Below, one piece after another: positions 20,704-59,424 of a stretch of 60,331 nucleotides of DNA. The translations under genes were made by a program, and so were the position numbers. Where the stretch lies: IMG/VR virus record IMGVR_UViG_3300044641_010300, positions 1-60,331 of that record; one strand, 5' to 3'. Origin of the DNA: a virus. Below the pieces are notes generated by a model that searched no databases, was not told the DNA's origin, and saw only the letters and a program-made list of their open reading frames with translations. How positions within the stretch are numbered: the first letter of the stretch is position 1; each line of letters starts with the position of its first letter.

Positions 20704-22434
20704 CTACTGATTTTGAGCTATGATTTTTGCTCTTTGCTCGGAGTTTAATTGGGTCGAAAGAGTTCTGGGATTGATTGAAGAAATGACAATATTCAATGCG
20801 GAGGGTTTACCTGGTACAATCCCGACCTCGTAATACGTACCATACCTATCCGTCCAACCACCTCTCATCAAAACCAATTCTCCCGTGTTAATTATAACGT
20901 CGCCAAACTCGTCCAAACCAATTTGGCGATTTAATTGAGCCGCACTAACATTGGGTAGTTTATCAACCGCAGTGTGATATTCCTCATTGGCCTGACCAAC
21001 AAAATAAAAAGAAACAGAATCAACTCCCTCAATTGCTTCAACAATGGCAATGATGTCTGATTTTGGAATTCTATCTCTTCTTTTCAAATTTAAGAAATAC
21101 TCGGCAATAGAACTACGAGCTTTATCCTTGATAATTTCTGGGTCATAACCTTCGAAAATAGACAACACTAAATTGCCAACGAAGTTTTGAATTTCTGGAT
21201 CTAAAATTTTCACAACAGTTGTGGCGATCATTTGACCAGAATCTTCCAATAAATTTAAAATCGAAAGCTTCTGAGCAGTGGTTAAAACAAAATTTTCTGC
21301 CGGCACGTCAAAATAATCCTGACCACTCAAAATATTTATTGATACATCGGGTACCAGAAAAAGATAAATAACGTTATCATCATCTAAAAAATCATCTCCA
21401 TAAGTGGTAAATGCATGAATCTGAGAAAAAATGTTAAATCTTTGTAAATAAATTTCATAGTTCTCAGAATTAGCAAACACAAAGGCTCTAGAAGTTTTGG
21501 GTGCGACCAAACGAGTTAATTCAATGGGTTCTGGATCACTGCCAAAAGATGGATCCAGCACGCCTAAAATTGTAAGATACGTGTTTAAATTAACCTCTTT
21601 ACCAAATAGATCTGTGCCAGTATCCATAAATCGATAGGTCAATTGCAAATCTTTTCTAGAGGCGATGTTACCACTAAATCCGCTGGTTTGAAGATATTCA
21701 GCCTTGATAATGCTTCCTCTCAAAGGGGGTTGTCCAAAATTTCCATTTCCAAAATAAATATCAATTCCTTCAGAAATTCCGGATTTAACCAGATAGCCTC
21801 TAGCATTCAAAGGAATATCATACAAAGAAAAATATTTTTTCCATGGCACATCATTGACCGAAATGTCGACGTAAAATTGGTCTATCAAAGTTCCAGATTT
21901 CGACACGACATTATAACTTTGTAAAGCTGCTCCTGTTCCGGTAAAGGTAGATGTTTGAAAAGCCCCCTGTACAATCTTAAAATTGAAGGTAGCCCCTCTA
22001 TTTAAAGGAACTTTAACTGAAGGTCCATTCAGTAACAGAGTGTAAATTAATCCATTTTGTTCACATTGTATTTTAGGTCTGCCAGACAAAATCACTGCTC
22101 CTCCACCCACGTCAGATTCTCTCAAATTCCACGTGATAGCAACTTCCCCTTGAGCAGCCATGCCCCGTGCGGGATCATAACCAGCAATCCGCGCTAAACT
22201 TTTAATGGAATAATCCCGGCTGGCCTGATAAATGTTTAATTCTGTAATTGAATCCTCGATAAAGTATAAAATCAACTGGGAAATATTTTCCAACACAAAA
22301 AGAATTTGACCCCAGGCAGAGGCAACAGTAAACACATTTCGAGTTTGATTGTAAGTTCTCTGGAGAAAATTGTAGGTGTCGTTTAGCAGACCCCTAATCA
22401 GGATATTGTTTTTCTGGAAAATATTAGTTGACAT
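20704..22434 (-). CDS. Baseplate wedge protein, gp6 / gpJ-like
   Basis: This 576-residue protein matches the Baseplate_J / T4 gp6 type in architecture and position. The N-terminus is helical (LLNDTYNFLQRTYNQTRNVF), followed by an LYFIEDSITELNIYQASRDYS helix and the family-like turn SIKSLARIAGYDPARG near residues 75-90. A beta-rich middle follows (IYFGNGNFGQPPLRGSIIKA, the typical FGDG..G..P..G pattern). Later comes a helical dimerisation-like domain (LNLLEDSGQMIATTVVKILDPE) containing IPKSDIIAIVEAIEGVDSV, which matches the usual C-terminal ferredoxin-like part. Such proteins form the wedge ring around the hub and control sheath contraction. It lies 4 bases after the gp25-like gene, as in most myophages. 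Confidence 0.8.
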   Translation of the reverse strand: MSTNIFQKNNILIRGLLNDTYNFLQRTYNQTRNVFTVASAWGQILFVLENISQLILYFIEDSITELNIYQASRDYSIKSLARIAGYDPARGMAAQGEVAITWNLRESDVGGGAVILSGRPKIQCEQNGLIYTLLLNGPSVKVPLNRGATFNFKIVQGAFQTSTFTGTGAALQSYNVVSKSGTLIDQFYVDISVNDVPWKKYFSLYDIPLNARGYLVKSGISEGIDIYFGNGNFGQPPLRGSIIKAEYLQTSGFSGNIASRKDLQLTYRFMDTGTDLFGKEVNLNTYLTILGVLDPSFGSDPEPIELTRLVAPKTSRAFVFANSENYEIYLQRFNIFSQIHAFTTYGDDFLDDDNVIYLFLVPDVSINILSGQDYFDVPAENFVLTTAQKLSILNLLEDSGQMIATTVVKILDPEIQNFVGNLVLSIFEGYDPEIIKDKARSSIAEYFLNLKRRDRIPKSDIIAIVEAIEGVDSVSFYFVGQANEEYHTAVDKLPNVSAAQLNRQIGLDEFGDVIINTGELVLMRGGWTDRYGTYYEVGIVPGKPSALNIVISSINPRTLSTQLNSEQRAKIIAQNQ

Positions 22435-22438
22435 ACTT

Positions 22439-22810
22439 TTAAGTTACTTTCAGGGAAACCAGGGGACTTTTGCCACCATAGCTTGGAATAAAGAAATTTA
22501 GATAGACAATATCTCTTTCTGTTCCAGCATAAAATTCAACATTGAAATAGCCATTCAATTGATAGAAAATAGGCACATAATTTTTGATTTGCCTGGCAAT
22601 TTCGTCAGTAAGAGTTTTTTGGGAAAGTTCTTGGCTGAAAACCAATTCCTCTAAACTTAAACCAAAAGAGGGATCTCCAAGTACCTCTCCTTTGATCGTT
22701 AGTAACAACATTTTAAGTTGACCGATGCAAATTTCGATCGGATCTGTTGTTTCTAAAACATCAGATTTATAAAAAGGATCTCCTGGATCTCGATTGTAAA
22801 TTTCTATCAT
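22439..22810 (-). CDS. Baseplate wedge protein, gp25 / gpW-like
   Basis: This 123-residue protein fits the GPW_gp25 family in length and pattern. It has an acidic, Pro-containing start (DPGDPFYKSDVLETTDP) and a helix ending in the conserved LLTIKGEVLGDPSFGLSLEEL. A terminal DEIARQIKNYVP helix and beta strands (YFNVEFYAGTERDIVYLNFFI) follow. gp25 proteins have a lysozyme-like fold without activity and act as the initiator of sheath assembly in the wedge. The gene begins the wedge operon, 17 bases after a GATATATA box. Confidence 0.88.
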   Translation of the reverse strand: MIEIYNRDPGDPFYKSDVLETTDPIEICIGQLKMLLLTIKGEVLGDPSFGLSLEELVFSQELSQKTLTDEIARQIKNYVPIFYQLNGYFNVEFYAGTERDIVYLNFFIPSYGGKSPLVSLKVT

Positions 22811-22891: not shown

Positions 22892-23674
22892 TCAATTCCA
22901 CTGCAAAAAATAAGATGGCGTGTTCTCGCCATTAATCATGGTCATCACCTCCTGTAATTCGTTGGAAGCTTCTTGTGACAATGTTGAAGTGTTGACTCTT
23001 ACGCCTCCTGGTAGGTTATAATCGAACGCACTCAATACTTTTACTAAAGATTGTTTGGCTTTAGCAAAACAATATCGAATAAAAAGTTCATCGTTGTATA
23101 ATTCATAATCCTCGATTGCCACATAACAACTGACAACTACAGCCTGTGTCAAATTGTAACCAGCGTTGCTTTGGGGAGAAGAAGAGTTTTTGGCGGGAGA
23201 TGGATCTCTCCCCAGAATGGTTAATTTTTTGGTGTTTTTATTCCAGCTGAAAGCGTAAGTTGGCAGAAGATAAGCCTTAGCCAAATCAAAATAAGAATAC
23301 ATTACAGTTCTATAAACCAGATTGTCCCCCGTAAAAGGAGAAAGCAGGAGTTCGGAACCAATCAACTTGGAATCTCCGAAATCTTTGTCTGGGTTGCCAG
23401 AAATTCCATTCCCGTTGGTTTCTCTCACATCGAAAACTGTGACAATCTTATCTGGGAGTTGGACCTGTCTGGTGTTTCTAAATTGAGGGGTTTGGAAGAA
23501 AGCACCACCCAGAACAAAGTACCTTTTTTCGACTGCATACTGATAGTTATCATACATCCAGGCCTTAGCACGATTGATAATCCTTTTGATTTCTTGGTCG
23601 TTGAGATTATAAGGCAAAGCGCAACTAGCTGAAAGATCATCCTTAATTTCCTGAATCAATTCTTCTAAAGTCAT
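22892..23674 (-). CDS. Virion protein, possible head-tail neck/adaptor component
   Basis: This 260-residue protein starts MTLEELIQEIKDDLSASCALP, then NDQEIKRIINRAKAWMYDNYQYA. A helical N-terminus with regularly spaced I/L followed by a Trp-containing helix is common in small connector/adaptor proteins that sit under the portal. The middle is beta-rich (QVQLPDKIVTVFDVRE) and the C-terminal half helical (LFIRYCFAKAKQSLVKVLSAF). No catalytic motif is seen. It lies 1 base after the amidoligase-like gene and before the wedge operon. The neck/adaptor call is a weak inference from the N-terminus; virion association is more secure. Confidence 0.6.
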   Translation of the reverse strand: MTLEELIQEIKDDLSASCALPYNLNDQEIKRIINRAKAWMYDNYQYAVEKRYFVLGGAFFQTPQFRNTRQVQLPDKIVTVFDVRETNGNGISGNPDKDFGDSKLIGSELLLSPFTGDNLVYRTVMYSYFDLAKAYLLPTYAFSWNKNTKKLTILGRDPSPAKNSSSPQSNAGYNLTQAVVVSCYVAIEDYELYNDELFIRYCFAKAKQSLVKVLSAFDYNLPGGVRVNTSTLSQEASNELQEVMTMINGENTPSYFLQWN

Positions 23675-23675
23675 A

Positions 23676-25067
23676 TTAGTAGTTGATATTTTTGAATTTA
23701 ATCTTGGTGATTGGGTCGTTCAAATTTTTCAATCTAGAATCGGAAATAAAACGACTTGTTCTAATTTCATTGAAATCTTTCACCTTTTCAGTTTGTTCCG
23801 AAATGAGCGAATTCCTGCCCAAATCTGCTTTCCTTAACACTCCCCCTTTAACTTCACAGTCTACCATTTGTTGAGGACAATCTATATAACAATTCTCCAA
23901 CAGGTTACCATAGTCTGCAATTGAATTTTGAAATTTGCTTTCGAAAAGTTTGTTACCAAAAACAAGTTTGCAATCATACAACTCTGAATTTTTAACCTGT
24001 GTTCCGTATAAATTACAATTGGATAATTTTCCATTTTTGACTACACTATCAAAAATATCAATGTCTTTCAGAATCAGACCATTTTTACTTTTAGCATCCT
24101 TGATCTGAAAACGCCCAATCGAGGTATCATAATTGAAGAAACAAGAGTTTATTCCACCTTCCACAATAAGGTCGAAAATTTTTTCTCTGATGTGTGACCA
24201 GTAAGTTTTGATGTTTTCTTCGTATCCCTTCAAATCGACCAACACGTGGAAATCTGGATAATTCACAAAGAAAGAATCTGGATTTGAGAAGCTTCTGACC
24301 ACTTTTGTGTGTTGTCTCATCATCTCCTGTAACTTTTCAACATCACCTTGACCGTATCCTTTTTTACCAGATAAAATGTCATGTAACAACAGTGTAACGT
24401 AATCGGTGACTTCTAATATAGGTCCAATTTTCTTTTGGTAATCCTTGCCTCCAAGATAGCGTATTTCAACATACCCATCTTGCAATTTGGTGAAATTGGC
24501 TCCATAATATTTCTCGCCTGGCAATTTGAAAAGTTTGGGATCTATGGTGGTGATATTTTCTAAAATAGAAAATTTATTGACCGGAACAATCTTTTTTAGA
24601 GATTTAGCGTAGACATTGTTGGTTCTATTTCCAAAAGAAGAATACACAATTCCCTCGTCAATCCCCAAGATAAACTTCAGGCGGTCCAATCTTTCCATCT
24701 TTTCCAATTCCCGATTAGTGGGGTCGAATGAAATTGAAAATTGAAATGCACACCTATCATTGGTCCAACCGTTAGACTCAATCCACTTCAAAATCTTAAT
24801 TAACACAGGCATAGCTTCACCATAAGGCATAGGACCTGTGATAAGTTCGTTCATTTTACTGCCTCCAGAATAATCTGGTTCCAACTTGAAGCTATTTGCG
24901 CTGACTGGAATTTTGGAATGGTACTTGTCAGATAAAACGACTTTTTTGTTCAATAATTTAGACAAAGACTCAACAATTCTCCCTCTCACCATCTCGGAAA
25001 AGAATTCAAATTCAAATCCGAGAATGGCAGAAGAGAGAGCCTGGTATTTGTCAAAATGTGAGTTCAT
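23676..25067 (-). CDS. Amidoligase-like protein with C-terminal beta-helix repeats
   Basis: This 463-residue protein has the motif order of the putative amidoligase (COOH-NH2 ligase, glutamine-synthetase-like) superfamily. GFEFE is at 17-21, EPDYSGGSKMNELITGP at 63-79, and a G-x-x-N-R-C segment is followed by FQFSIS at 109-114, where family members usually have H-x-H. An N-F-T-K-L plus YVEIRYLGG segment (190-207) corresponds to the usual N...EfR strand. The region from about 320 to 430 is a run of short N, C, L, K repeats (LSNCNLYGTQVKNSELYDCKL) that looks like a pentapeptide-type beta-helix. Its ATG overlaps the stop of the S1-domain gene by one base (TAATG). Amide ligation to a peptide or amine is the family activity; the substrate here is unknown. 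The changed H-x-H leaves activity uncertain. Confidence 0.6.
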   Translation of the reverse strand: MNSHFDKYQALSSAILGFEFEFFSEMVRGRIVESLSKLLNKKVVLSDKYHSKIPVSANSFKLEPDYSGGSKMNELITGPMPYGEAMPVLIKILKWIESNGWTNDRCAFQFSISFDPTNRELEKMERLDRLKFILGIDEGIVYSSFGNRTNNVYAKSLKKIVPVNKFSILENITTIDPKLFKLPGEKYYGANFTKLQDGYVEIRYLGGKDYQKKIGPILEVTDYVTLLLHDILSGKKGYGQGDVEKLQEMMRQHTKVVRSFSNPDSFFVNYPDFHVLVDLKGYEENIKTYWSHIREKIFDLIVEGGINSCFFNYDTSIGRFQIKDAKSKNGLILKDIDIFDSVVKNGKLSNCNLYGTQVKNSELYDCKLVFGNKLFESKFQNSIADYGNLLENCYIDCPQQMVDCEVKGGVLRKADLGRNSLISEQTEKVKDFNEIRTSRFISDSRLKNLNDPITKIKFKNINY

Positions 25068-26227
25068 TAAACTTGTCGAGCGAATATTTTTCCTGCTAAG
25101 GCATCTACCTGATAAACCTGAACTCTAATGGTGTCACCAGCTTGAAGATTTTTTGAATTTTTGCCCAATTTTTCCTGTGGAACTAGTGCTAGTTGGCCAG
25201 AGTCCCCAATTTCAATCAAGGCTCCATTTTTTCTTTTATGCTTAACAATAGCTTCCATGGGTTCGATTGTACCTTCTTCGACACTTTTTTTCAATTCAAA
25301 CAGCCACTTATTTTTTTCTAAAGGCTCTCCAAAGGTCAAAGTCAATCTATTATCATCTTTAATTTCTTTGATGTAAAATTCAATTTCATCTCCCGGATTA
25401 AAACCAGTTATAACTTGATTTTCAAATTCAGTTTTGTGAATCAAGCCAGTAAAAATTTCTTCCCATTCGACAAAAACACCAAAAGCAGAAGTACCTGTCA
25501 CATGTCCTTTGTACTTTTTGCTTAAATCCAGTTCTTGGATTTTGTGATCCATGATTTTTTGTAAATACTTTTTGTAGGAAACAACAAAAATGTCTTTTGC
25601 TGCCACGTAACCATCGATCATTACATAAAACTTTTTACCAATATAAGCGTCAAAGTCTGTAATCTTATTCGCAGCGGCTAAGGATCCAGGTAAGAAACAT
25701 TTGATTCCGTTAACATCCACAATGTATCCTCCTTTATTGATGGACTCCACTCTAGCTTCGTAAGCCAAAGTTTCTTTTTTGATTTGATCAAAGAATTCTG
25801 TTTTCAAATTTTGAGTGTAACTTTCAACGACAGAACCGTAATAGGTACCAGAGATTTGTCTCACAACAGCGGAAATCTCGTTGCCGACTTCGAAATTGAT
25901 TACCTCTCCCAGGCCCAATCTTTCGGCGTCCTTTTTTTCTTTTTTAAGGTCGATGTAGATGGTTTGGCCGGAAGAAGTTTGAGCCAAAGCGTGAGTTGAA
26001 TCAGAAGCGGAGATGACACAAGAATAAGAACCTCCAGGGGTCAAATCTTTGGAGGTATTCAACCCCATCATGTTGCCTACCATGAGATTGTACAATTCCA
26101 AAGCGTAACTCTCGTGACAATAAACTTTGGTTTTTTCAGCGGTCTTAAATTTAGAATTAACCGTGAAATTGTTGGGAATATCCCAGTTGAAACTTGTGGT
26201 TTCGATAGAAATTTTTTTTGATTTCAT
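25067..26227 (-). CDS. Multi-S1-domain RNA-binding protein (ribosomal protein S1-like)
   Basis: I place the start at the ATG at 26227 (MKSKKISIETTSF). A longer frame reaches 26266, but it would overlap the late-promoter-like box at 26250-26259. The 386-residue protein contains about four S1/OB-type repeats. The third is the clearest (LSKKYKGHVTGTSAFGVFVE, then FTGLIHKTEF, then FNPGDEIEFYIKEI). The second (VESINKGGYIVDVNGIKCFLPGS) and the last (MEAIVKHKRKNGALIEIGDSG) also fit. S1 domains bind single-stranded RNA, and ribosomal S1 feeds mRNA to the 30S subunit. The gene lies in the middle of the baseplate cluster, upstream of an amidoligase-like gene. A role in phage mRNA translation or stability is inferred, not shown. 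Confidence 0.85.
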   Translation of the reverse strand: MKSKKISIETTSFNWDIPNNFTVNSKFKTAEKTKVYCHESYALELYNLMVGNMMGLNTSKDLTPGGSYSCVISASDSTHALAQTSSGQTIYIDLKKEKKDAERLGLGEVINFEVGNEISAVVRQISGTYYGSVVESYTQNLKTEFFDQIKKETLAYEARVESINKGGYIVDVNGIKCFLPGSLAAANKITDFDAYIGKKFYVMIDGYVAAKDIFVVSYKKYLQKIMDHKIQELDLSKKYKGHVTGTSAFGVFVEWEEIFTGLIHKTEFENQVITGFNPGDEIEFYIKEIKDDNRLTLTFGEPLEKNKWLFELKKSVEEGTIEPMEAIVKHKRKNGALIEIGDSGQLALVPQEKLGKNSKNLQAGDTIRVQVYQVDALAGKIFARQV

Positions 26228-26249
26228 TTTTTTAGGTTTAAAAAGACAA

Positions 26250-26259
26250 TCTATATATC
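26250..26259 (-). promoter_or_regulatory. Late-promoter-like TATA box
   Basis: On the minus strand this reads GATATATAGA, 22 bases before the preferred ATG at 26227 of the S1-like gene. It is one of four exact matches to the consensus. Confidence 0.65.
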
Positions 26260-26288
26260 TTTTCAAAACCTAAACTAAAAACGAAATC

Positions 26289-29036
26289 TTAATTTTGAAG
26301 AGCAGGTAATAAAATATCTTTGGCGAACCTAAAATTGTATTGAACATAATACCTCACAAATCTTGCTTCAAACCTATTTTCAGTTGTGGGTATTTCAGGA
26401 TCATAATTTCTGAAAAAAGAATAATCCAGAAAAGATTGAAATAGTTGACCGTTGTTGATTAACTTGAACTCACCTTCTCCATTTTCGTTTAAAGCCCATA
26501 CTGTGATAGGAATCGATTTATCAACTAAATCACTTTGGCTTCTGTCAGTTGCTCTAAAAGAAAGTTCGTATGCTACTCTGGAAAGAACTTTCAGATTCTC
26601 CCCGATTTGATTTAAAGTTAAAGAATCCCAACGGAAGTTAGATTGAAATTCCGCTGGTAAATTTCTTCTGAAAACAGAAATAGGCTTTCCCTCCTCTTGT
26701 CTTATTTTTTGAAGATCCAGAAGGACTTCTTGAATCCCTCCTTCCGTATTAGGTGCATTTTCGGAACCCCCCGGCTGCCCTGGATAAATCTCTCTCAATA
26801 AAATGTCTCTAAAAAATTCTTGAGAAATCTCTCTAGCCTCTCCCGATTTATATTCCCCAAAGTTGTTCCTATTTGGATCGGTTTCAATGCCTAACGAAGA
26901 AATCAAACCTTGAAGTAAATCTCCGGAAGCCTCTTGTGTTTGAGAAATAGGATTTTGATTTGGTTTATTTTGAGAGAAAATACAGGTAAAACACAATGGG
27001 ATTAAACGGGGAATTTGTGCAGCCAAAGCAACAGTGATCGAGAATAATCCTTTGATACTTTCCCAGGCTGCAATAGCTTTAAGGGGTAAGTATCTCTCCA
27101 AAATAAACAGAAAAGTTTTATTGGGATTATTCACACTAATAGAGGCTTTAAATTGGTCAGAAACTATCCCATTGTAGGCAGATTGAAGTTGTTGATTTTC
27201 TGAATTTCCATAAACTTCAACCACATCCACAGGCTGCACAAGGAAATCGAAATATGATTGTTGATTAAATTCCAATAAGTTTTTGGCAGTAACTCTAAAA
27301 TTTTGAAATTGTCCATTTGAACTCAAATAAAACGTGTCCCCTACTTTAAGAGAAGCCAAATAAGCCAAACCATTTTCTACCGTATCTGTGATTGTGCTAA
27401 ATCTCATAGAACTATTTTGGTTTAGAATTTGGGATTGTAAACTAACCTCTCCCAAATCTGGGATAGGATTTTGTGTTAAATTATAACTCAATTGCACGAT
27501 TGGACTTTCCCCAGGTAAAATTTGTAACTTAGATGACTCCCGAACAAAGAAATTTGCATCTGGGTTATATGAGTTTAATTTTCTATCAAAAGCCCCACAA
27601 ATAAGATCAGAAAATAGAGGCTTGAGTCCTCTACCTCGATCATTTGGATCTTGTACAAGTTCATCCCACGGGATCAAAGGTATTAGTGGAGGTTCTAAAT
27701 AGGGACGAAGAAATTTTAAAAAAGCATCAGAAATTATATCACATAAAAACCTTATTGGATTTGATATAATTTTGAAAACAGTTTTAATTAAAGAAATTGG
27801 GTTGGAAATTTGTGAAGCCACTGTTTGAATAACGGAGATGAAAACAGAAATAGGCAACAGCAACAATTTCAAATAATTCAAAATAATTTTAATTAGAAAA
27901 AAGGGATTTTCAGTTCCAATTTGAAGAAAACGAGCCAAATTCAATAATTCTAATTTGGCTACTTCTTGGGCATTTCTTAATGTAGGATCTTTTTGAATTT
28001 CTTCCCAATCAATTACCGGGAAAATTCCATCGATCATATCCCCTAAGACTTTGGAGAAATCCAAATTGGTCCTGGCCTCAAGGTCTTTAATAAATTTATA
28101 AGTTGGATTGTTTTCTGAAAGTCGATCAAAATTTCCAAGTTCTAAAGAAATTCTATCTATTAACGGGAGATTGATACCCAAAGCAGAAAATGGGATTCTT
28201 AAAAAACCATCGGGGGTAAGAAATTGTCTTAAGTTTATTTTTCTTGATAGTCTCAAGGAAGCATTTGAAAATCCGGGCACAAAAACTTTTTCTTCTCCTG
28301 TTCCAATACCTTGGGAGGAAGCTGCCTCTAATTGAAAAAAAATGGAAACGAAATTTGTTCCCAAATCAACAGAAGAAACTCGGTATGTGTTGGTAAAATT
28401 TTCGAAATCTAACGAAAAATAATCCCCCGGTTTCAGAAAAACCAATGGAGAATCAGTTTCGCCATTTTCACTGATGAAATTAATTTTCATTTGTCTTAGA
28501 GTGTCCAGAGAATCGTTGGGGGTTGTGATGATCCCGGATTCTGGATCTAAAATGGAGTTAAATTCAATTTTGTAATTGAAAAGAAGATCAGAAGAAGTTA
28601 TTTCGGTAGGGACAGTCTCAATTTCTCTTAACAATGTTTGTGTATTTCCTCCGGAAGACCTGTTGCCAAAGAGCAAAGCAACAGGGAAAGGAAAATCTTC
28701 GGCTAATGGGTTATTCACTCCTTGGTCCAAAAGAAACTGTATTGGATTCGAAAAAAAGGTTCTTAATTCATTTAATCTTTCTCTAATGTAACCTAGAACA
28801 TTCAATCGTTTGAAAGCTTCTTCTAAAATTTGTTTACCTATTAAAATAGGGGCTAGATTGCTGAGGATTGATTTTTCAAAAATTCTAATTTGGAGTTTCA
28901 CCAATAAACCTAGCCCAGGTAATTCGGGTCTGGGTATTTCGAATTTGCTGTCTCCTATGATTTCATCAGCCGTTTCATTGACCCTGTCTACAAAATTGGA
29001 AATTTGCTGGTCTGTTAAACATTTTGGAATTAGCAT
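26289..29036 (-). CDS. Large virion protein of the baseplate cluster
   Basis: This 915-residue protein is not recognised. The first 120 residues are helical and proline-punctuated (DRVNETADEIIGDSKFEIP, KSILSNLAPILIGKQILEEAF). The middle (about 390-460) has hydrophobic helices (LKLLLLPISVFISVIQTVASQI) that could insert in a membrane or pack in a hub. Another hydrophobic segment is near KAIAAWESIKGLFSITVALAAQIPRL (quoted ends: KAIAAWESIKG ... ALAAQIPRL). The C-terminus is aromatic-rich (RYYVQYNFRFAKDILLP). It sits between the spike gene (2 bases after its stop) and the S1-like gene. A hub-associated or membrane-contacting component is possible, as is a tape-measure-like role, though its position argues against the latter. 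Confidence 0.7.
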   Translation of the reverse strand: MLIPKCLTDQQISNFVDRVNETADEIIGDSKFEIPRPELPGLGLLVKLQIRIFEKSILSNLAPILIGKQILEEAFKRLNVLGYIRERLNELRTFFSNPIQFLLDQGVNNPLAEDFPFPVALLFGNRSSGGNTQTLLREIETVPTEITSSDLLFNYKIEFNSILDPESGIITTPNDSLDTLRQMKINFISENGETDSPLVFLKPGDYFSLDFENFTNTYRVSSVDLGTNFVSIFFQLEAASSQGIGTGEEKVFVPGFSNASLRLSRKINLRQFLTPDGFLRIPFSALGINLPLIDRISLELGNFDRLSENNPTYKFIKDLEARTNLDFSKVLGDMIDGIFPVIDWEEIQKDPTLRNAQEVAKLELLNLARFLQIGTENPFFLIKIILNYLKLLLLPISVFISVIQTVASQISNPISLIKTVFKIISNPIRFLCDIISDAFLKFLRPYLEPPLIPLIPWDELVQDPNDRGRGLKPLFSDLICGAFDRKLNSYNPDANFFVRESSKLQILPGESPIVQLSYNLTQNPIPDLGEVSLQSQILNQNSSMRFSTITDTVENGLAYLASLKVGDTFYLSSNGQFQNFRVTAKNLLEFNQQSYFDFLVQPVDVVEVYGNSENQQLQSAYNGIVSDQFKASISVNNPNKTFLFILERYLPLKAIAAWESIKGLFSITVALAAQIPRLIPLCFTCIFSQNKPNQNPISQTQEASGDLLQGLISSLGIETDPNRNNFGEYKSGEAREISQEFFRDILLREIYPGQPGGSENAPNTEGGIQEVLLDLQKIRQEEGKPISVFRRNLPAEFQSNFRWDSLTLNQIGENLKVLSRVAYELSFRATDRSQSDLVDKSIPITVWALNENGEGEFKLINNGQLFQSFLDYSFFRNYDPEIPTTENRFEARFVRYYVQYNFRFAKDILLPALQN

Positions 29037-29038
29037 AA

Positions 29039-29707
29039 TTATCTAGTTTTACTCACCGTAGAAAGATGGTCAGGAGTAGAAGGAACCACGGGAGGAGAAG
29101 TGGGAGCACCCAGATTACCAACATGGGTGTGTGAATTAAAATAAGTTTGAAAGGTATTACCTTTTATCACTGCCTCGATGGCAGCTTCGCCCAGTTCTAT
29201 ATTATTAGAGTTAATAATCACTTTGTTATTTTCCATCCGAATTTGGTCTTGCCCCATTTCAATTACGATTCTCAGCTGACCCCCATCTTGAGTATCCAAT
29301 TGAATTTTAGCATTTCCCAGAGAAAAAACAGCTCCCTTTTTTTTAGTGTAAAATAATGTTAAAGGTCCAGGCTCAGCCTCTGTGTCATACATAAGAACCT
29401 GTGCGCCTTCATAGGAGTCAGCTATCTCGGCTAACATGTCCTGGGCATAGTCCTTCTCCCCATAATAGTTCATCTTGTAGTAATTCTGGCCATCGAACTG
29501 AACGACAACAACAGCTCCTAATTTTGGGATAGAAATGGTACCCGCTCCGCCCCTTCCAAAAGACAACCCACTGATTTGACTAGCCCACGGAATGTCCTGG
29601 TCCTCCAAACCATCAAACAATCCAAAAACTCTGATTCTAGCTCGGCCAGATTTTCTGGGATCGTTGATATCTACAACCTGTCCTAAATAAAAACGGGGGC
29701 TTGACAT
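29039..29707 (-). CDS. Baseplate spike protein, gp5/gpV-like OB-fold
   Basis: This 222-residue protein has the gp5 OB-fold signature at its start: FYLGQVVDINDPRKSGRARI, then VFGLFDGLEDQDIPWA and an SIPKLGAVVVVQFDG segment. The C-terminal part carries the short strand repeats and the FNSHTHVGNLGAPTSPP motif commonly seen at the end of spike proteins (DSHTH-like). It lacks the lysozyme domain of T4 gp5. The gp5/gpV protein forms the trimeric needle under the hub that pierces the outer membrane. It overlaps the start of the VYP-repeat gene by one base and precedes the 915-residue gene by two bases. Confidence 0.85.
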   Translation of the reverse strand: MSSPRFYLGQVVDINDPRKSGRARIRVFGLFDGLEDQDIPWASQISGLSFGRGGAGTISIPKLGAVVVVQFDGQNYYKMNYYGEKDYAQDMLAEIADSYEGAQVLMYDTEAEPGPLTLFYTKKKGAVFSLGNAKIQLDTQDGGQLRIVIEMGQDQIRMENNKVIINSNNIELGEAAIEAVIKGNTFQTYFNSHTHVGNLGAPTSPPVVPSTPDHLSTVSKTR

Positions 29708-32067
29708 TACTGTTCGTCTTCTATTTCTTCAGTGGGATTAAAAGTACCTAAACTAGGGTTAAATTTAGTAGAAGGTTTCATGTTTCCTAAATTCAAAGGA
29801 GGCTCTATGATAAAATCTCCTACTGTGGGGGGATAAACATCCCCAAGACCACCTTGAATAGGCCTTGCCCTCGGGATCTCATAGACAGATCCAGGAGGTT
29901 CAGTAAAAGAATTTTCTCTGGCTCTAAGCTCTCCTGCTATATTTGCAAAAGTGCTAGGAGCATAAACTTGTTCACGTGGCAAAGAGTCTGTAAAGTTGTT
30001 TTCTGTATAAACATCTCCTCGAGTGATGGGGTAAACCCGATCAGGAACTCCCAAATCCGGTCCAGGTACACCAGAATAAATGTCCCCTATGGGATCAGTG
30101 GGATAAACCCTATCAGGTACACCCAAATCTCTACCTGGAACATCCGTATAAACATCTCCTCCGGGAATAGGATAAACTCGATCGGGAACTCCTAGATCTG
30201 GCCCAGGTACATCCTCGTATACATCCCCACTTGTAACTGGATACACCCGATCGGGAACACCGAGATCTGAACCAGGAACTTGGTCATAAACATCTCCCAC
30301 TGGATTTGGATAAACTCGATCAGGAACTCCCAGATCTGTCCCTGGTACATCCGGGTAAACATCCCCAACAGGTCGAGGATAAACTCGATCCGGGGGTCCT
30401 AAATCGAGTCCAGGTACCGTATCATAAACGTCTCCTGTAGGAACGGGATAAACCCGATCAGGAGGACCTAAATCCTGGCCAGGTACAGAATCATACACGT
30501 CTCCAGTAGGGGGTGGATAAACTCTACCTGGAGCTCCTAGATCAGTACCGGGAACTCTGGGGTACACGTCTTCCGGAGGAGAAATTGGAGGGTAGGCTCT
30601 TTCTGGTGGACCTCCCAATCCCACCTTTTGCGGGTTGGGCAAATTGCCTTTGAAAATGTTATCTATGCCGGTTGACGCTGCTCCATTGAGGAAATTTTGA
30701 GCATCGTTAAAGTTAAATCCATTTGGGGTAACCATTCTCCCAATTTGAGATGGATTGAAAGAATAAATGTTGCCTAGGAGGGATTGGTTTAATCCAGACA
30801 GAGCAGGATTGACAAATTGGTTGACCCCTTCATTAACCAAATCGTTGACAGCAGCAGAAGTGAAATTGGTTATCAATTCATTAGCTTGGCTGGCGATGGT
30901 TTCCAAAGTTAAGGCGGCAGTTTGTACAGAAGATCTTGATTGGTATGCCCCATCTGCTAGAATCAAGGGTTTTTTATCGTTTCGAATGTTGGGATATTGA
31001 TTTTTCATTCTGACTTTCCCCACGTGAATCTTAAAACTTTGTTTGGCCATCAGTGAATCTGCCGAGGAGCTACCCATATCAATTGTAGAAGCTAGAGGAG
31101 TGCTGGTGCTAAAATCAAATTCACACTGGTGACACTCATAAATAAAAACGGGTTTGATGCCACTTTGATCTTGTTGATTGCGGAAAGCCTGCACATCATT
31201 TTGTAAACCAGATTGACCAAACACATTCGACACAAAACTGGTAAAAGAGTTGCCTGGATTTCCGGACACATTTTCGATGGGGTCTTCTATGCCCAGATTT
31301 TGAATATTAGAACCAGGATTGCGATTGGTGGTTAAAACATTAGATAAATTATCTAAAGAAGCCAAAACAGTTGACGCACCAGTTAGTCTAGAGGTTTTAA
31401 AGAAATTCCTAATTTCCGTCACGAAAATATACATCGTGAATTTTCTCAAATTTCTGGGCACTAGCCATCTCATGTTATCGGCATCGAACATAGCGGTTTC
31501 GTACAAGTCTGCCAAAGCAGAAATTCTCAAATTCAAGGATTCTAAGCAACCAATTGTTAAAGTTTTACCGTCTGTTTTTTGGGGATTGAATCCATCAAAA
31601 CCCGCTTCATCTTGGAAACCAGTTCTGGTAATTTTATCTAATTTATCTAATCCTTCAATGGATTGAAAAAACCAAGGAGAATTATTATTAATATTATTTA
31701 ATAAAACCTGAAATTGTCGCAAAGCATTGGCTCTTTTGATACGATCGGATTCTGCTCCAAAAGCTCCTTCTCTCTGTAACAAATAATTGTAAGTGGAATA
31801 ATAAATAGGTCCACCTAAATTGTAAGCAGGTTGTCCAAAAGGGTTTTCAAGTCCTGATGCCATCCCGGCCCCATTGCCGGCGGTATAATTGGCGATTCGC
31901 AGCAATGGACTCGGAGCCCAACCATATTCAGGATTGACAGGTAAGGTGCCAAAATCAAAGACAAACTTGAAACCCAAATATGTGGGGTCCTCATTTTTTC
32001 CCTGATCTGAAAGTCTAAATCCTTTCAAAAACAAATTTCTATTTCTGTCTGTGGCCTGAATTCCCAT
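29707..32067 (-). CDS. Baseplate/tail protein with C-terminal VYP tandem repeats
   Basis: The first 450 or so residues of this 786-residue protein are a globular part. It starts with KGFRLSDQGKNEDPTYLGFKF and ends in Asn/Gln-rich helices. The remainder is a run of eight 23-residue repeats, GDVYDSVPGQDLGPPDRVYP and variants, preceded by related degenerate text and ending in a ninth partial copy. A tail of about 80 residues, containing PPTVGDFIIEPPLNL, follows. The repeats are rich in P, G, D, V and Y and look like extended or polyproline-like beta turns. The gene lies between the gp27/gpD-like hub gene and the spike gene, so it probably binds the hub or central needle. The family is unknown. 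Confidence 0.75.
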   Translation of the reverse strand: MGIQATDRNRNLFLKGFRLSDQGKNEDPTYLGFKFVFDFGTLPVNPEYGWAPSPLLRIANYTAGNGAGMASGLENPFGQPAYNLGGPIYYSTYNYLLQREGAFGAESDRIKRANALRQFQVLLNNINNNSPWFFQSIEGLDKLDKITRTGFQDEAGFDGFNPQKTDGKTLTIGCLESLNLRISALADLYETAMFDADNMRWLVPRNLRKFTMYIFVTEIRNFFKTSRLTGASTVLASLDNLSNVLTTNRNPGSNIQNLGIEDPIENVSGNPGNSFTSFVSNVFGQSGLQNDVQAFRNQQDQSGIKPVFIYECHQCEFDFSTSTPLASTIDMGSSSADSLMAKQSFKIHVGKVRMKNQYPNIRNDKKPLILADGAYQSRSSVQTAALTLETIASQANELITNFTSAAVNDLVNEGVNQFVNPALSGLNQSLLGNIYSFNPSQIGRMVTPNGFNFNDAQNFLNGAASTGIDNIFKGNLPNPQKVGLGGPPERAYPPISPPEDVYPRVPGTDLGAPGRVYPPPTGDVYDSVPGQDLGPPDRVYPVPTGDVYDTVPGLDLGPPDRVYPRPVGDVYPDVPGTDLGVPDRVYPNPVGDVYDQVPGSDLGVPDRVYPVTSGDVYEDVPGPDLGVPDRVYPIPGGDVYTDVPGRDLGVPDRVYPTDPIGDIYSGVPGPDLGVPDRVYPITRGDVYTENNFTDSLPREQVYAPSTFANIAGELRARENSFTEPPGSVYEIPRARPIQGGLGDVYPPTVGDFIIEPPLNLGNMKPSTKFNPSLGTFNPTEEIEDEQ
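30019..30573 (-). repeat. In-frame 69-base tandem repeat, eight copies
   Basis: Eight units encode GDVYxxVPGxDLGxPDRVYPxP. Seven units are 69 bases and one has a 3-base insertion (TDPIGD), so the array is 555 bases. The amino-acid pattern is well conserved, while third codon positions vary widely. Confidence 0.95.
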
Positions 32068-42129: not shown

Positions 42130-43539
42130 TCATTGGTTAGATTCGGGATCTAAAAAAAGGTCTACCGCTTGCTGACGGTATTTTAATTTGTTTTCTTTAA
42201 TTTTGGGGTTCTTCAATGCTTCCTTCGGTCTATTTACAATTTCTTCAGGCAGTAAGGGCCCAAAGGTGTCTTTTAGAATTTTTTTATCGGTTCTCCATTC
42301 TTTAGGAAGATGAAGGGCAAATCGTACTAAATCCAAATTGAGGAAAGGATTTCTAAGTTCTAAGGTGTGTGCCATAGAAAGCTTATCTAGTCTAGGTAAA
42401 TGATAAAATCTCAACTCATCGAAAACATCCGAAAATTGAGAATCATATTCGTGAATTCTAGAGTAACCCCCAAAAAGCTCATCAGCTCCATCCCCACTCA
42501 AAACAATTCTAGATTCACCATATTTTTTAACAGATTCAAAAAGGAAGTATTGAGGAACTACAGATCCTAAATCAATGGGACTTTCGTTCCAATCCTGATA
42601 GATTTTTTTAATTTGCAATTCATCCATCTTGTAATCTAGAAAATTCACCGTCTTTTGATGAAATCTGGATAAAATATTAACATATTCAGATTCTCCATTT
42701 TCAATAGAAAACCATTTTACCTCTGGTGCAAGCTCTTTTAAAATCCCAGCAATAATTGAGGAATCTAAACCTCCAGATACCAAAAGAGAAATAGGATAGT
42801 TTTTAGAAATTAATCTGTTTCGGACAGATTCAAAAAGTTTTGCCCACAGCCACTCCATATGGGCTTCATAATCTCCGGAAGCTAAATTTTCGATGGGGAA
42901 ATTAAAACCTCGATAATAATTAGCATAAGTGGTTTTAAAACTTGGAGAATTTAGATTATAATGGTAGATTGTGTTTGGTAAAATTCTTTTAACATCCAAA
43001 TATGGAGTGGAATCGTTGGTCACATAGCCAAATTTTCTAACAGTAGAAATAAAATGAGAATCTTTGGGACTAAACCAATGTTTAACCGCTTTTATCTCAG
43101 AAGCTAGTTCGCCGTCTTCATTAACATAAAGACATTTTTTCCCCAAAGGGTCCGTAAAACAGATAACATCTTTATTTTTAGCATCATAGATAGCTAAAGC
43201 CCAAAAACCATCCCATGTCTGAATTCTAGGCATGAACATCGAACAAAACATTTCGAAAGAACCTCCTTTCCAAGAAGAGAAAATGTGACATAAATATTCA
43301 ATATCACACCCAAACACAGCGGTGTCATAATTGAAGATTTCCCCGTTGTACAAAAGAAAAATTCCAGGGGAAATCTCAATTGGTTGCTTCCAGCCGTCAC
43401 CCTCTTCTGTTTGGATGGGAAGTCTAGTATGACATAAATAGATTCCCTCTCTTTCGATAGTATTAGATTCGATGCCTCTGTGGGACAAAGAATTTAATCT
43501 TTCTTTTTCTCCGTCTATGTTTATGAAGATTCCACACAT
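42130..43539 (-). CDS. asnB: Asparagine synthetase (glutamine-hydrolysing), AsnB-like
   Basis: This 469-residue protein has both AsnB domains. The class II glutamine amidotransferase half has the nucleophile Cys2 in MCGIF, SHRGIESN at 19-26, the substrate-binding HTRLP at 37-41 and LLYNGEIFNYD at 62-72. The ATP-pyrophosphatase half has SGGLDSS at 255-261 and a LSGDGADELFGGYSR block near 345-360. It transfers ammonia from glutamine to aspartate, forming asparagine with AMP and pyrophosphate; some relatives amidate sugars instead. It is shorter than most bacterial AsnB proteins. It closes a four-gene cassette with a kinase (1-base gap), a glycosyltransferase-like gene and a lipoprotein gene. 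That setting makes an amidotransfer step in a modification pathway as likely as free asparagine supply. Confidence 0.9.
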   Translation of the reverse strand: MCGIFINIDGEKERLNSLSHRGIESNTIEREGIYLCHTRLPIQTEEGDGWKQPIEISPGIFLLYNGEIFNYDTAVFGCDIEYLCHIFSSWKGGSFEMFCSMFMPRIQTWDGFWALAIYDAKNKDVICFTDPLGKKCLYVNEDGELASEIKAVKHWFSPKDSHFISTVRKFGYVTNDSTPYLDVKRILPNTIYHYNLNSPSFKTTYANYYRGFNFPIENLASGDYEAHMEWLWAKLFESVRNRLISKNYPISLLVSGGLDSSIIAGILKELAPEVKWFSIENGESEYVNILSRFHQKTVNFLDYKMDELQIKKIYQDWNESPIDLGSVVPQYFLFESVKKYGESRIVLSGDGADELFGGYSRIHEYDSQFSDVFDELRFYHLPRLDKLSMAHTLELRNPFLNLDLVRFALHLPKEWRTDKKILKDTFGPLLPEEIVNRPKEALKNPKIKENKLKYRQQAVDLFLDPESNQ

Positions 43540-57709: not shown

Positions 57710-58507
57710 TTATTTTTTTGTATTCCATTTGGGATTAAACCAAAAGGTTCTACCGTTTTTATCTGTTATTTTAGACATCAGAGGATTGCCGTAGCACAAC
57801 ATAAATTCATCCCAATTGGTAGGAATTTTGCCATCTGGATTTTTCCAATCTTTAATTCTACCCCCGCCGAGAGTGTAGGCTATGGTAGGTAAATCCCGAC
57901 ACAAATCTAAAATAATCGGGTGTTGGGCGATGTAATCTCCAGCGGCCTTAAAGGGGTCAGAGTCAATGCGATATAAAATTTCAGCTCTTAAATAGTTGCC
58001 AATTCCGTTGAAGAATTTTTGGTTCATCAAAACTTCATGAATGGGTTTCTCGAATGCTTTTGATTTCAAATTTGATAAGACATGAATTTTAAATGCTTCA
58101 AAATCTCTAGCTGGATCCGGACCTCGTTCCGGATTCCAAGATTCGAAAGACCATCTACCAAATCTTCTTACATCTACGAAACACACTTCTCCTTCAGAGG
58201 AAAGAAAACTTAAATGTGTGTGTTTAGGTCTTGAACCCAAATCTGCCCATTTGAAATGACCAGACATGCCCATAGTCATTTTTAAAGAAAGAATTTCAGA
58301 TTTGGTTGAAACCGGAAAATCTTCCATGGTTTCTAATAACAAAAGCATTTCCTTTCCTCTGGAAGTGGCTTGAATTTTAAACGGAGATTCTAAAGTAAAT
58401 TCCTTTCCTTTGTGTTCTGGATTTTTCCAAACCCCATGGAAAATTTTACCCTGTGAAATTTTTTGAACATATTCCGCGGTTAATCTGACTTCTGCTAATT
58501 CTGGCAT
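57710..58507 (-). CDS. Fpg/Nei-family DNA glycosylase
   Basis: This 265-residue protein begins MPELAEVRLTAEYVQKISQG, with the catalytic proline at position 2 and Glu3. K52 in SRGKEMLLLLE corresponds to the conserved lysine. The helix-two-turn-helix contains FFNGIGNYLRAEILYR. The C-terminal finger region is DKNGRTFWFNPKWN, without the four zinc-binding cysteines, as in zinc-less members of the family. The conserved Arg in GRTFW is kept. These enzymes excise oxidised bases and cut the backbone by a Schiff-base intermediate on Pro2. It lies 35 bases after the UvdE-like gene. Confidence 0.9.
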   Translation of the reverse strand: MPELAEVRLTAEYVQKISQGKIFHGVWKNPEHKGKEFTLESPFKIQATSRGKEMLLLLETMEDFPVSTKSEILSLKMTMGMSGHFKWADLGSRPKHTHLSFLSSEGEVCFVDVRRFGRWSFESWNPERGPDPARDFEAFKIHVLSNLKSKAFEKPIHEVLMNQKFFNGIGNYLRAEILYRIDSDPFKAAGDYIAQHPIILDLCRDLPTIAYTLGGGRIKDWKNPDGKIPTNWDEFMLCYGNPLMSKITDKNGRTFWFNPKWNTKK

Positions 58508-58542
58508 GGCGTAAAAATAAACAAATTAATTCAACAAATTTC

Positions 58543-59424
58543 TTAAATTTTTGGAATTATCAAAGGAATCAAAGATTTGTGTTCGGACAAATATTGGATA
58601 CAAGTTTTATAGGAATCTGGCGATTCAACAACAACATCTACATCCAAACCAAAAGTTGGAATACGGTGGGATAACCTTACAGAGGAATTTGGAGAGATTG
58701 AAATTCCTTTGTCATCTAAAATAGAACTTTCTCCGTGAAAATAAATTGGCTTATAAGGAGATTCCCAAGTAGAGCAACTTAAAAATAGAGCCTCTCTAAA
58801 ATTTAGACCCCCAGAATTAAATTGATGGGGTAGGGATCTGAAACAAATTGGAATTTTAACAGGGTAAAAAACTCCAGCTAATAAATCAGTTACAGAAAAA
58901 AGAGAGGGCTTATCATCATTTGTGACGGCCAGCATTTTTCTGATAGACAGCGGAAATTTTTGTATTTCTTCACAAAATCTCTGGGCAGTTTCTTTTCTAT
59001 TACCATAAGCACTTCCTACTCTGAGCAGCACACAAGGTTCAGAAATGCCCAATCCTTCTATCAAAGAAGCAAGTTTTCCTATCATCACATGGGTTTGTTC
59101 GACAGAATCTGGCAACTTTGAACCTAGAAAAAAGTGTTGTGATAGGAAAAATAAAATTCTGTGGGAATGAACTCTTAGATTTTGACTTAAATTATCTAGA
59201 AGGTTTAAATCTGAATGGCCTTCTTCCAAATTGGAAAAATCTGGCAAATTGTAATCTGCTTCGGTTAATTGAAAACAAGTGACATCTATCCCGTTTTTGA
59301 CGTGTCTGTCGATTGTATCCGACACAAATTGCAAAAATTGTCTGGGTGAAACTTCATCGTTCCTTGTGAACTTGAAATTTCCAACAATAGAACCTAATTT
59401 GTGAGGGGTTTTGCTTAAAATCAT
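58543..59424 (-). CDS. UvdE-like TIM-barrel protein with lost metal ligands
   Basis: This 293-residue protein follows the UV damage endonuclease layout: LGISEPCVLLRVGSAYGNRK (128-144), KMLAVTNDDKPSLFSVTDLL (163-182) and VKIPICFRSLPHQFNSGG (189-206). In active enzymes these blocks carry metal ligands. By memory-based alignment the His of L-x-H-x-G-G is Arg135, the Glu of L-E-N-D is Thr168, and the Asp of F-D-V-H-H is Arg196. The SFHPGQF strand is replaced by LFFLSQHFF (91-99). The fold looks kept but the catalytic centre is not. The protein may have become a binding or structural partner, or the residues may have moved; no activity should be assumed. It lies 34 bases after the 160-residue gene. 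Confidence 0.6.
   Translation of the reverse strand: MILSKTPHKLGSIVGNFKFTRNDEVSPRQFLQFVSDTIDRHVKNGIDVTCFQLTEADYNLPDFSNLEEGHSDLNLLDNLSQNLRVHSHRILFFLSQHFFLGSKLPDSVEQTHVMIGKLASLIEGLGISEPCVLLRVGSAYGNRKETAQRFCEEIQKFPLSIRKMLAVTNDDKPSLFSVTDLLAGVFYPVKIPICFRSLPHQFNSGGLNFREALFLSCSTWESPYKPIYFHGESSILDDKGISISPNSSVRLSHRIPTFGLDVDVVVESPDSYKTCIQYLSEHKSLIPLIIPKI

Follow-up and report, generated by a model that had tools for sequence, protein, structure and literature searches.

The locus examined here raises two questions: why an amidoligase-like enzyme joined to a beta-helix is encoded among baseplate genes, and whether that enzyme, in which a metal-ligand histidine appears to be replaced, is still active. 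The window (the whole stretch of DNA analysed, a 60 kb IMG/VR record of 60,331 nucleotides) also encodes a Gp23-type major capsid protein, an S77-type prohead protease, a gp25-like protein, a wedge subunit and a gpV-like hub, and it is therefore a fragment of a T4-type myophage. The original prediction proved to be a real finding that had mostly been read correctly. Its coordinates correspond to a 463-aa open reading frame with an ATG start and a TAA stop (23676..25067), which lies on the minus strand, a point that had gone unstated. The quoted motifs were all found, namely GFEFE (residues 17-21), PDYSGG...NELITGP (64-79) and N191...EIRYLGG (201-207). The start codon shares one base with the stop codon of the upstream gene (TAATG), and the downstream gene begins 2 bases past the amidoligase stop.

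Pfam, NCBIfam, PADLOC and PDB sequences contained no informative match to the window protein, and one weak PHROG match was obtained (E 0.007). Three IMG/VR scans confirmed 421, 529 and 492 relatives in overlapping sets. Six records of huge phages, 462-735 kb in size, contained relatives; huge-phage genomes of 634, 636, 642 and 735 kb have been described (PMC7162821). The Amidoligase_2 profile (PF12224) did not detect the window protein alone, but of 60 diverse relatives it matched 25 at E<=0.01, with a best value of 1.4e-9; several family members exceeded Pfam's curated cut-off. Comparison of the family with bacterial Amidoligase_2 by hhalign gave an E-value of 2e-6 over the first 55 columns, and profile comparisons with proteins of two cultured jumbo phages gave 4.5e-14 for gp196 of the Agrobacterium phage Atu_ph07 and 1.5e-11 for gp125 of SCTP-2. 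Across 60 diverse family sequences, 20 columns were invariant, and conservation of the motifs is far above chance.

The family shares with Amidoligase_2, surveyed by Iyer et al. 2009 (as cited in PMC10580990), the motif order GxExE, D-x-S, ExxxxP/GP, H-x-N, ExR and the GS/GCS fold. The window protein differs in falling under the detection limit of the profile, in its fusion to a middle segment and a pentapeptide beta-helix, and in its encoding within a tail operon. Because the metal-ligand histidine is replaced by Q109, it is a divergent relative inside the Amidoligase_2 superfamily and not a canonical member. The family is widespread in huge phages and apparently unannotated; most of it escapes current profiles, and it now gains an annotation.

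The AlphaFold2 model of the window protein was confident, with a pLDDT of 87.5 and a pTM of 0.82. Foldseek analysis of the full model against the PDB returned glutamine synthetases (GS; 5e-6) and pentapeptide solenoids, and analysis against BFVD returned phage 'Amidoligase enzyme' models, including Atu_ph07 gp196 (1e-11). Residues 1-235 (24363..25067, minus strand; model pLDDT 88, Foldseek, hhalign) comprise the amidoligase domain, and this domain alone matched GS and E. coli gamma-GCS with low TM-scores of 0.36-0.40. The GS/GCS-like fold proposed for the protein was thus recovered. Its likeness to GS and gamma-GCS lies in the fold and the order of metal ligands, whereas identity is approximately 10%, the TM-score is low and no GS sequence profile matched. 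A helical and alpha/beta middle segment follows (residues 236-320; 24108..24362, minus strand; assigned from AlphaFold2 secondary structure), in which P271, D278 and N312 are conserved.

The C-terminal beta-helix is of the pentapeptide type (residues 326-416; 23820..24092, minus strand), as had been proposed. The predicted strands are spaced exactly 5 residues apart through residues 336-380, Pentapeptide_4 matched 30 of the 60 diverse relatives (best 8.7e-7; the window protein itself was not matched), and the family profile also matched PDB pentapeptide proteins. A 5-residue periodicity was not significant from the window sequence alone, with 977 of 10,000 shuffles equally good. The helix resembles those of pentapeptide repeat proteins (PF13599/PF00805; MfpA, Qnr, McbG-like) in its 5-residue strands, and it differs in being short and joined to an enzymatic domain, with nothing that points to gyrase binding.

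The metal ligands of GS are E129, E131, E212, E220, H269 and E357; the ADP phosphates are contacted by H271, and glutamate by R359 (PMC6529630). Paired by order and spacing rather than by superposition, the family residues E19, E21, D65, E74, E201 and R203 parallel GS E129, E131, E212, E220, E357 and R359. All six were invariant in 88 of 88 representatives, including those from the 634-735 kb phages. At the place of the metal-ligand histidine motif, the 88-sequence alignment puts F108-Q109-F110-S111 of the window protein (24735..24746, minus strand). The metal-ligand position is histidine in 61 sequences and glutamine in 27, and the counterpart of the GS H269/H271 pair is accordingly H-x-N in the former and Q-x-S or Q-x-N in the latter. 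The window protein and its clade carry Q-x-S, the aligned changes being His to Q109 and Asn to S111. The sampled bacterial Amidoligase_2 proteins also carry H-x-N (FGLHLNPE). The claim that F-Q-F had replaced the usual H-x-H was correct as to the loss of the histidine, but it was off by one residue, and the family norm is H-x-N.

A single branch (support 89/61) sets the H rows apart from the rest of the tree, and 90% of bootstrap trees show one change; the switch between histidine and glutamine therefore most likely happened once. As the codon-model dS was saturated, raw codon counts were used in place of dN/dS. The window gene differed from the close relative L002 by 46 synonymous codon changes versus 5 of the other kind, and from L004 by 212 versus 28, counts that point to purifying selection on the amidoligase of the Q clade. 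The rate of evolution of the amidoligase was approximately that of its structural neighbours.

A protein whose GS-like fold has become a structural part of the baseplate or a chaperone, with the beta-helix as its functional portion and ATP catalysis lost in the Q clade, would fit this shared rate, the fixed position in a structural operon and the replacement of the metal-ligand histidine throughout a large clade. However, the remaining predicted ligands are invariant in both the H and the Q clade. Decay should scatter across the site, yet Q109 was the sole position of the enzymatic domain that cleanly separated the two clades in the test used. Moreover, glutamine can coordinate Mg. We consider such a loss of catalysis unlikely, although it deserves serious attention, and the pattern of conservation favours an enzyme that still works, its metal site altered, over a dead or decayed one. 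The dead-enzyme reading drawn from a lost H-x-H is weakened by the finding that the norm is H-x-N and that a single predicted ligand has changed; inactivity, raised in the original prediction, is less likely than altered function.

The gene lies in a block of structural genes, all on the minus strand. Immediately upstream is a gene for a protein with three S1 RNA-binding domains (25067..26266; Pfam S1, 2.2e-18). Downstream are genes for a head-tail adaptor-like protein (22892..23674; PHROG head-tail adaptor Ad2, 8e-12), a gp25-like baseplate wedge protein (22439..22810; PHROG wedge, 5e-5, and GPW_gp25, 4e-4, the latter below the cut-off) and a baseplate wedge subunit (20704..22434; PHROG 219, 2e-26). 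The baseplate hub (gpV-like) protein is encoded at 29039..29707 (PHROG 430, 1e-15; Phage_base_V, 6e-5). The order tail genes, gpV, S1 protein, amidoligase, adaptor, gp25, wedge was seen within the Q clade and was also found in a distant H clade (L176, L247, L256, L260, L265). At least one tail or baseplate gene was present in 112 of 135 unique loci longer than 9 kb, a count that is too low for distant clades because the neighbour families were seeded from the window. The adaptor gene was immediately downstream in 92 of 158 cases, and the S1 gene was immediately upstream of 73 of the 138 unique amidoligase genes with a called upstream neighbour. For the 634-642 kb phages or relatives of theirs, some tail genes were located within several kb of the amidoligase; the surroundings of the gene in the 735 kb phage record contained no recognised tail gene. 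The proposed baseplate cluster is thus a tail/baseplate operon conserved over deep divergence. Such a location indicates co-expression at most, and not the target of the enzyme.

The family was also seen on two contigs binned in bacterial MAGs, L106 in a Deltaproteobacteria MAG and L107 in a Bacteroidetes MAG. L106 is probably phage DNA, either misbinned or integrated, because S1, adaptor and gp25 genes are also present on it. The neighbouring genes of the L107/L119 clade matched connector and tail-fibre proteins only weakly.

RimK modifies ribosomal protein S6, and by analogy the amidoligase might modify the S1-domain protein encoded upstream and so alter translation. The TAATG overlap of the two genes and their frequent adjacency would suit this role. 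Against it, the 634-735 kb phages conserve the amidoligase equally well, yet no S1 gene was recognised in its vicinity there; we regard the proposal as remote. A tail/baseplate operon is in itself an odd location for a translation factor, and the three-S1-domain protein is conserved there over deep divergence. A 915-aa protein encoded before the S1 gene (26289-29036, minus strand) evolves far more rapidly than the genes around it: it showed 35% identity to its counterpart in L009, where neighbours keep approximately 66-89%, and no detectable similarity was found at this position in other relatives.

A metabolic role was also considered. The matches to GS and gamma-GCS, together with the H-x-N motif of the GS-like glutamate-putrescine ligase (PMC8394153), would be compatible with an enzyme that makes a gamma-glutamyl or amide metabolite for infection, as gamma-GCS and the GS-like polyamine ligases do. 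Neither the fusion to a beta-helix nor the fixed tail-operon context points to metabolism, and we think this explanation very doubtful.

Phage amidoligases of the phiEco32 type have been proposed to modify the host (PMC10580990, PMC11318856), and the window enzyme might correspondingly act on the host's wall peptides or surface molecules at a late stage of infection, one possible purpose being to prevent superinfection. A second enzyme in the same structural cluster is in keeping with this, namely an asparagine synthetase with a glutamine amidotransferase domain (42130..43539, minus strand; PF00733, 2e-37), which looks intact, with the MCGIF and SGGLDSS motifs kept. It was found approximately 16-17 kb from the amidoligase in 6 of 6 Q-clade records searched, but in 0 of 11 H-clade records searched. 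The match of the family profile to 17 of 17 of these records is circular, as the records had been selected for carrying the amidoligase gene. Also against host modification is the baseplate-operon position held across deep divergence. Furthermore, phiEco32/Marvin-type systems pair the amidoligase with an adjacent GATase or cyclotransferase gene, and in Geobacillus phage GR1 a gamma-glutamylcyclotransferase adjoins the amidoligase, whereas the window gene is flanked by those for the S1 protein and the adaptor. Overall, we consider modification of the host improbable.

Among cultured phages, Atu_ph07 gp196, annotated in UniProt as 'Amidoligase enzyme', resembles the family in its H-x-N and ExR-x-x-GG motifs and in being encoded near structural genes, and it retains the histidine that the window protein has lost. 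In place of baseplate genes, its neighbours are nucleotidyltransferase and portal genes, the portal gene being two genes away, and it is without the beta-helix, which is also absent from SCTP-2 gp125. The gp196 region is rich in proteins found in virions (PMC6102473); gp196 is not named in the main text of that virion proteome paper. In the searched literature, which did not include the main amidoligase survey, there was no mention of pentapeptide repeats joined to a phage amidoligase.

In GS and gamma-GCS, Mg-ATP phosphorylates a carboxylate, which is then attacked by an amine. By extension, we tentatively favour, short of real confidence, a divergent Amidoligase_2 enzyme that is carried on a beta-helix, is co-translated with the tail/baseplate operon in a large group of huge myophages and would, at the assembly stage, form amide bonds on a protein of the tail or baseplate. 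With Mg-ATP, the enzyme would convert a carboxylate into an acyl-phosphate and couple it to an amine. The beta-helix would act as a docking or scaffold module that holds or presents the substrate. The side-chain oxygen of Q109 could still hold the metal, resulting in altered kinetics or specificity rather than loss of activity. That the window protein is an active Amidoligase_2 relative is probable from the conservation of its predicted ligands. Counted against the favoured explanation were the lost histidine of the window clade, the low TM-scores, the beta-helix-free gp196 and gp125, and the 735 kb phage with no recognised tail gene nearby.

The genes for phage amidoligases are commonly regarded as auxiliary or as serving host modification. 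In this family, the amidoligase gene is a conserved member of the tail/baseplate operon of numerous huge phages, and the largest phages known also carry it; the enzyme is fused to a beta-helix and has, in one large clade, an altered metal site. Should it act on virion proteins, phage tails would have an enzyme for forming amide bonds, and the family could be a source of new protein-ligating enzymes.

The same operon encodes a protein with an Asp/Tyr/Pro repeat array (29707..32067, minus strand) that is, speculatively, a candidate acceptor. The array, at about 30002-30583 (minus strand), is a 69-nt (23-residue) tandem repeat of GDVYxxVPGxDLGVPDRVYP. Between 5 and 9 DLGxP units were present in 9 of 9 Q-clade homologues examined and in 0 of 7 H-clade homologues examined. 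The glutamine-type amidoligase on its beta-helix, the asparagine synthetase and the repeat acceptor might have arisen in the Q clade as one virion-modification system, in which the ATP-dependent ligase would amidate or cross-link tail proteins at the Asp/Tyr-rich repeats. We consider such a joint origin highly improbable. Gln109, the synthetase and the repeats all map to one branch and so are not independent evidence, and their co-occurrence could equally be explained by plain co-inheritance. Elsewhere in the window, a Fapy/Nei-type DNA glycosylase gene adjoins a UvdE-type UV endonuclease gene (57710-59424, minus strand), forming a DNA-repair pair.
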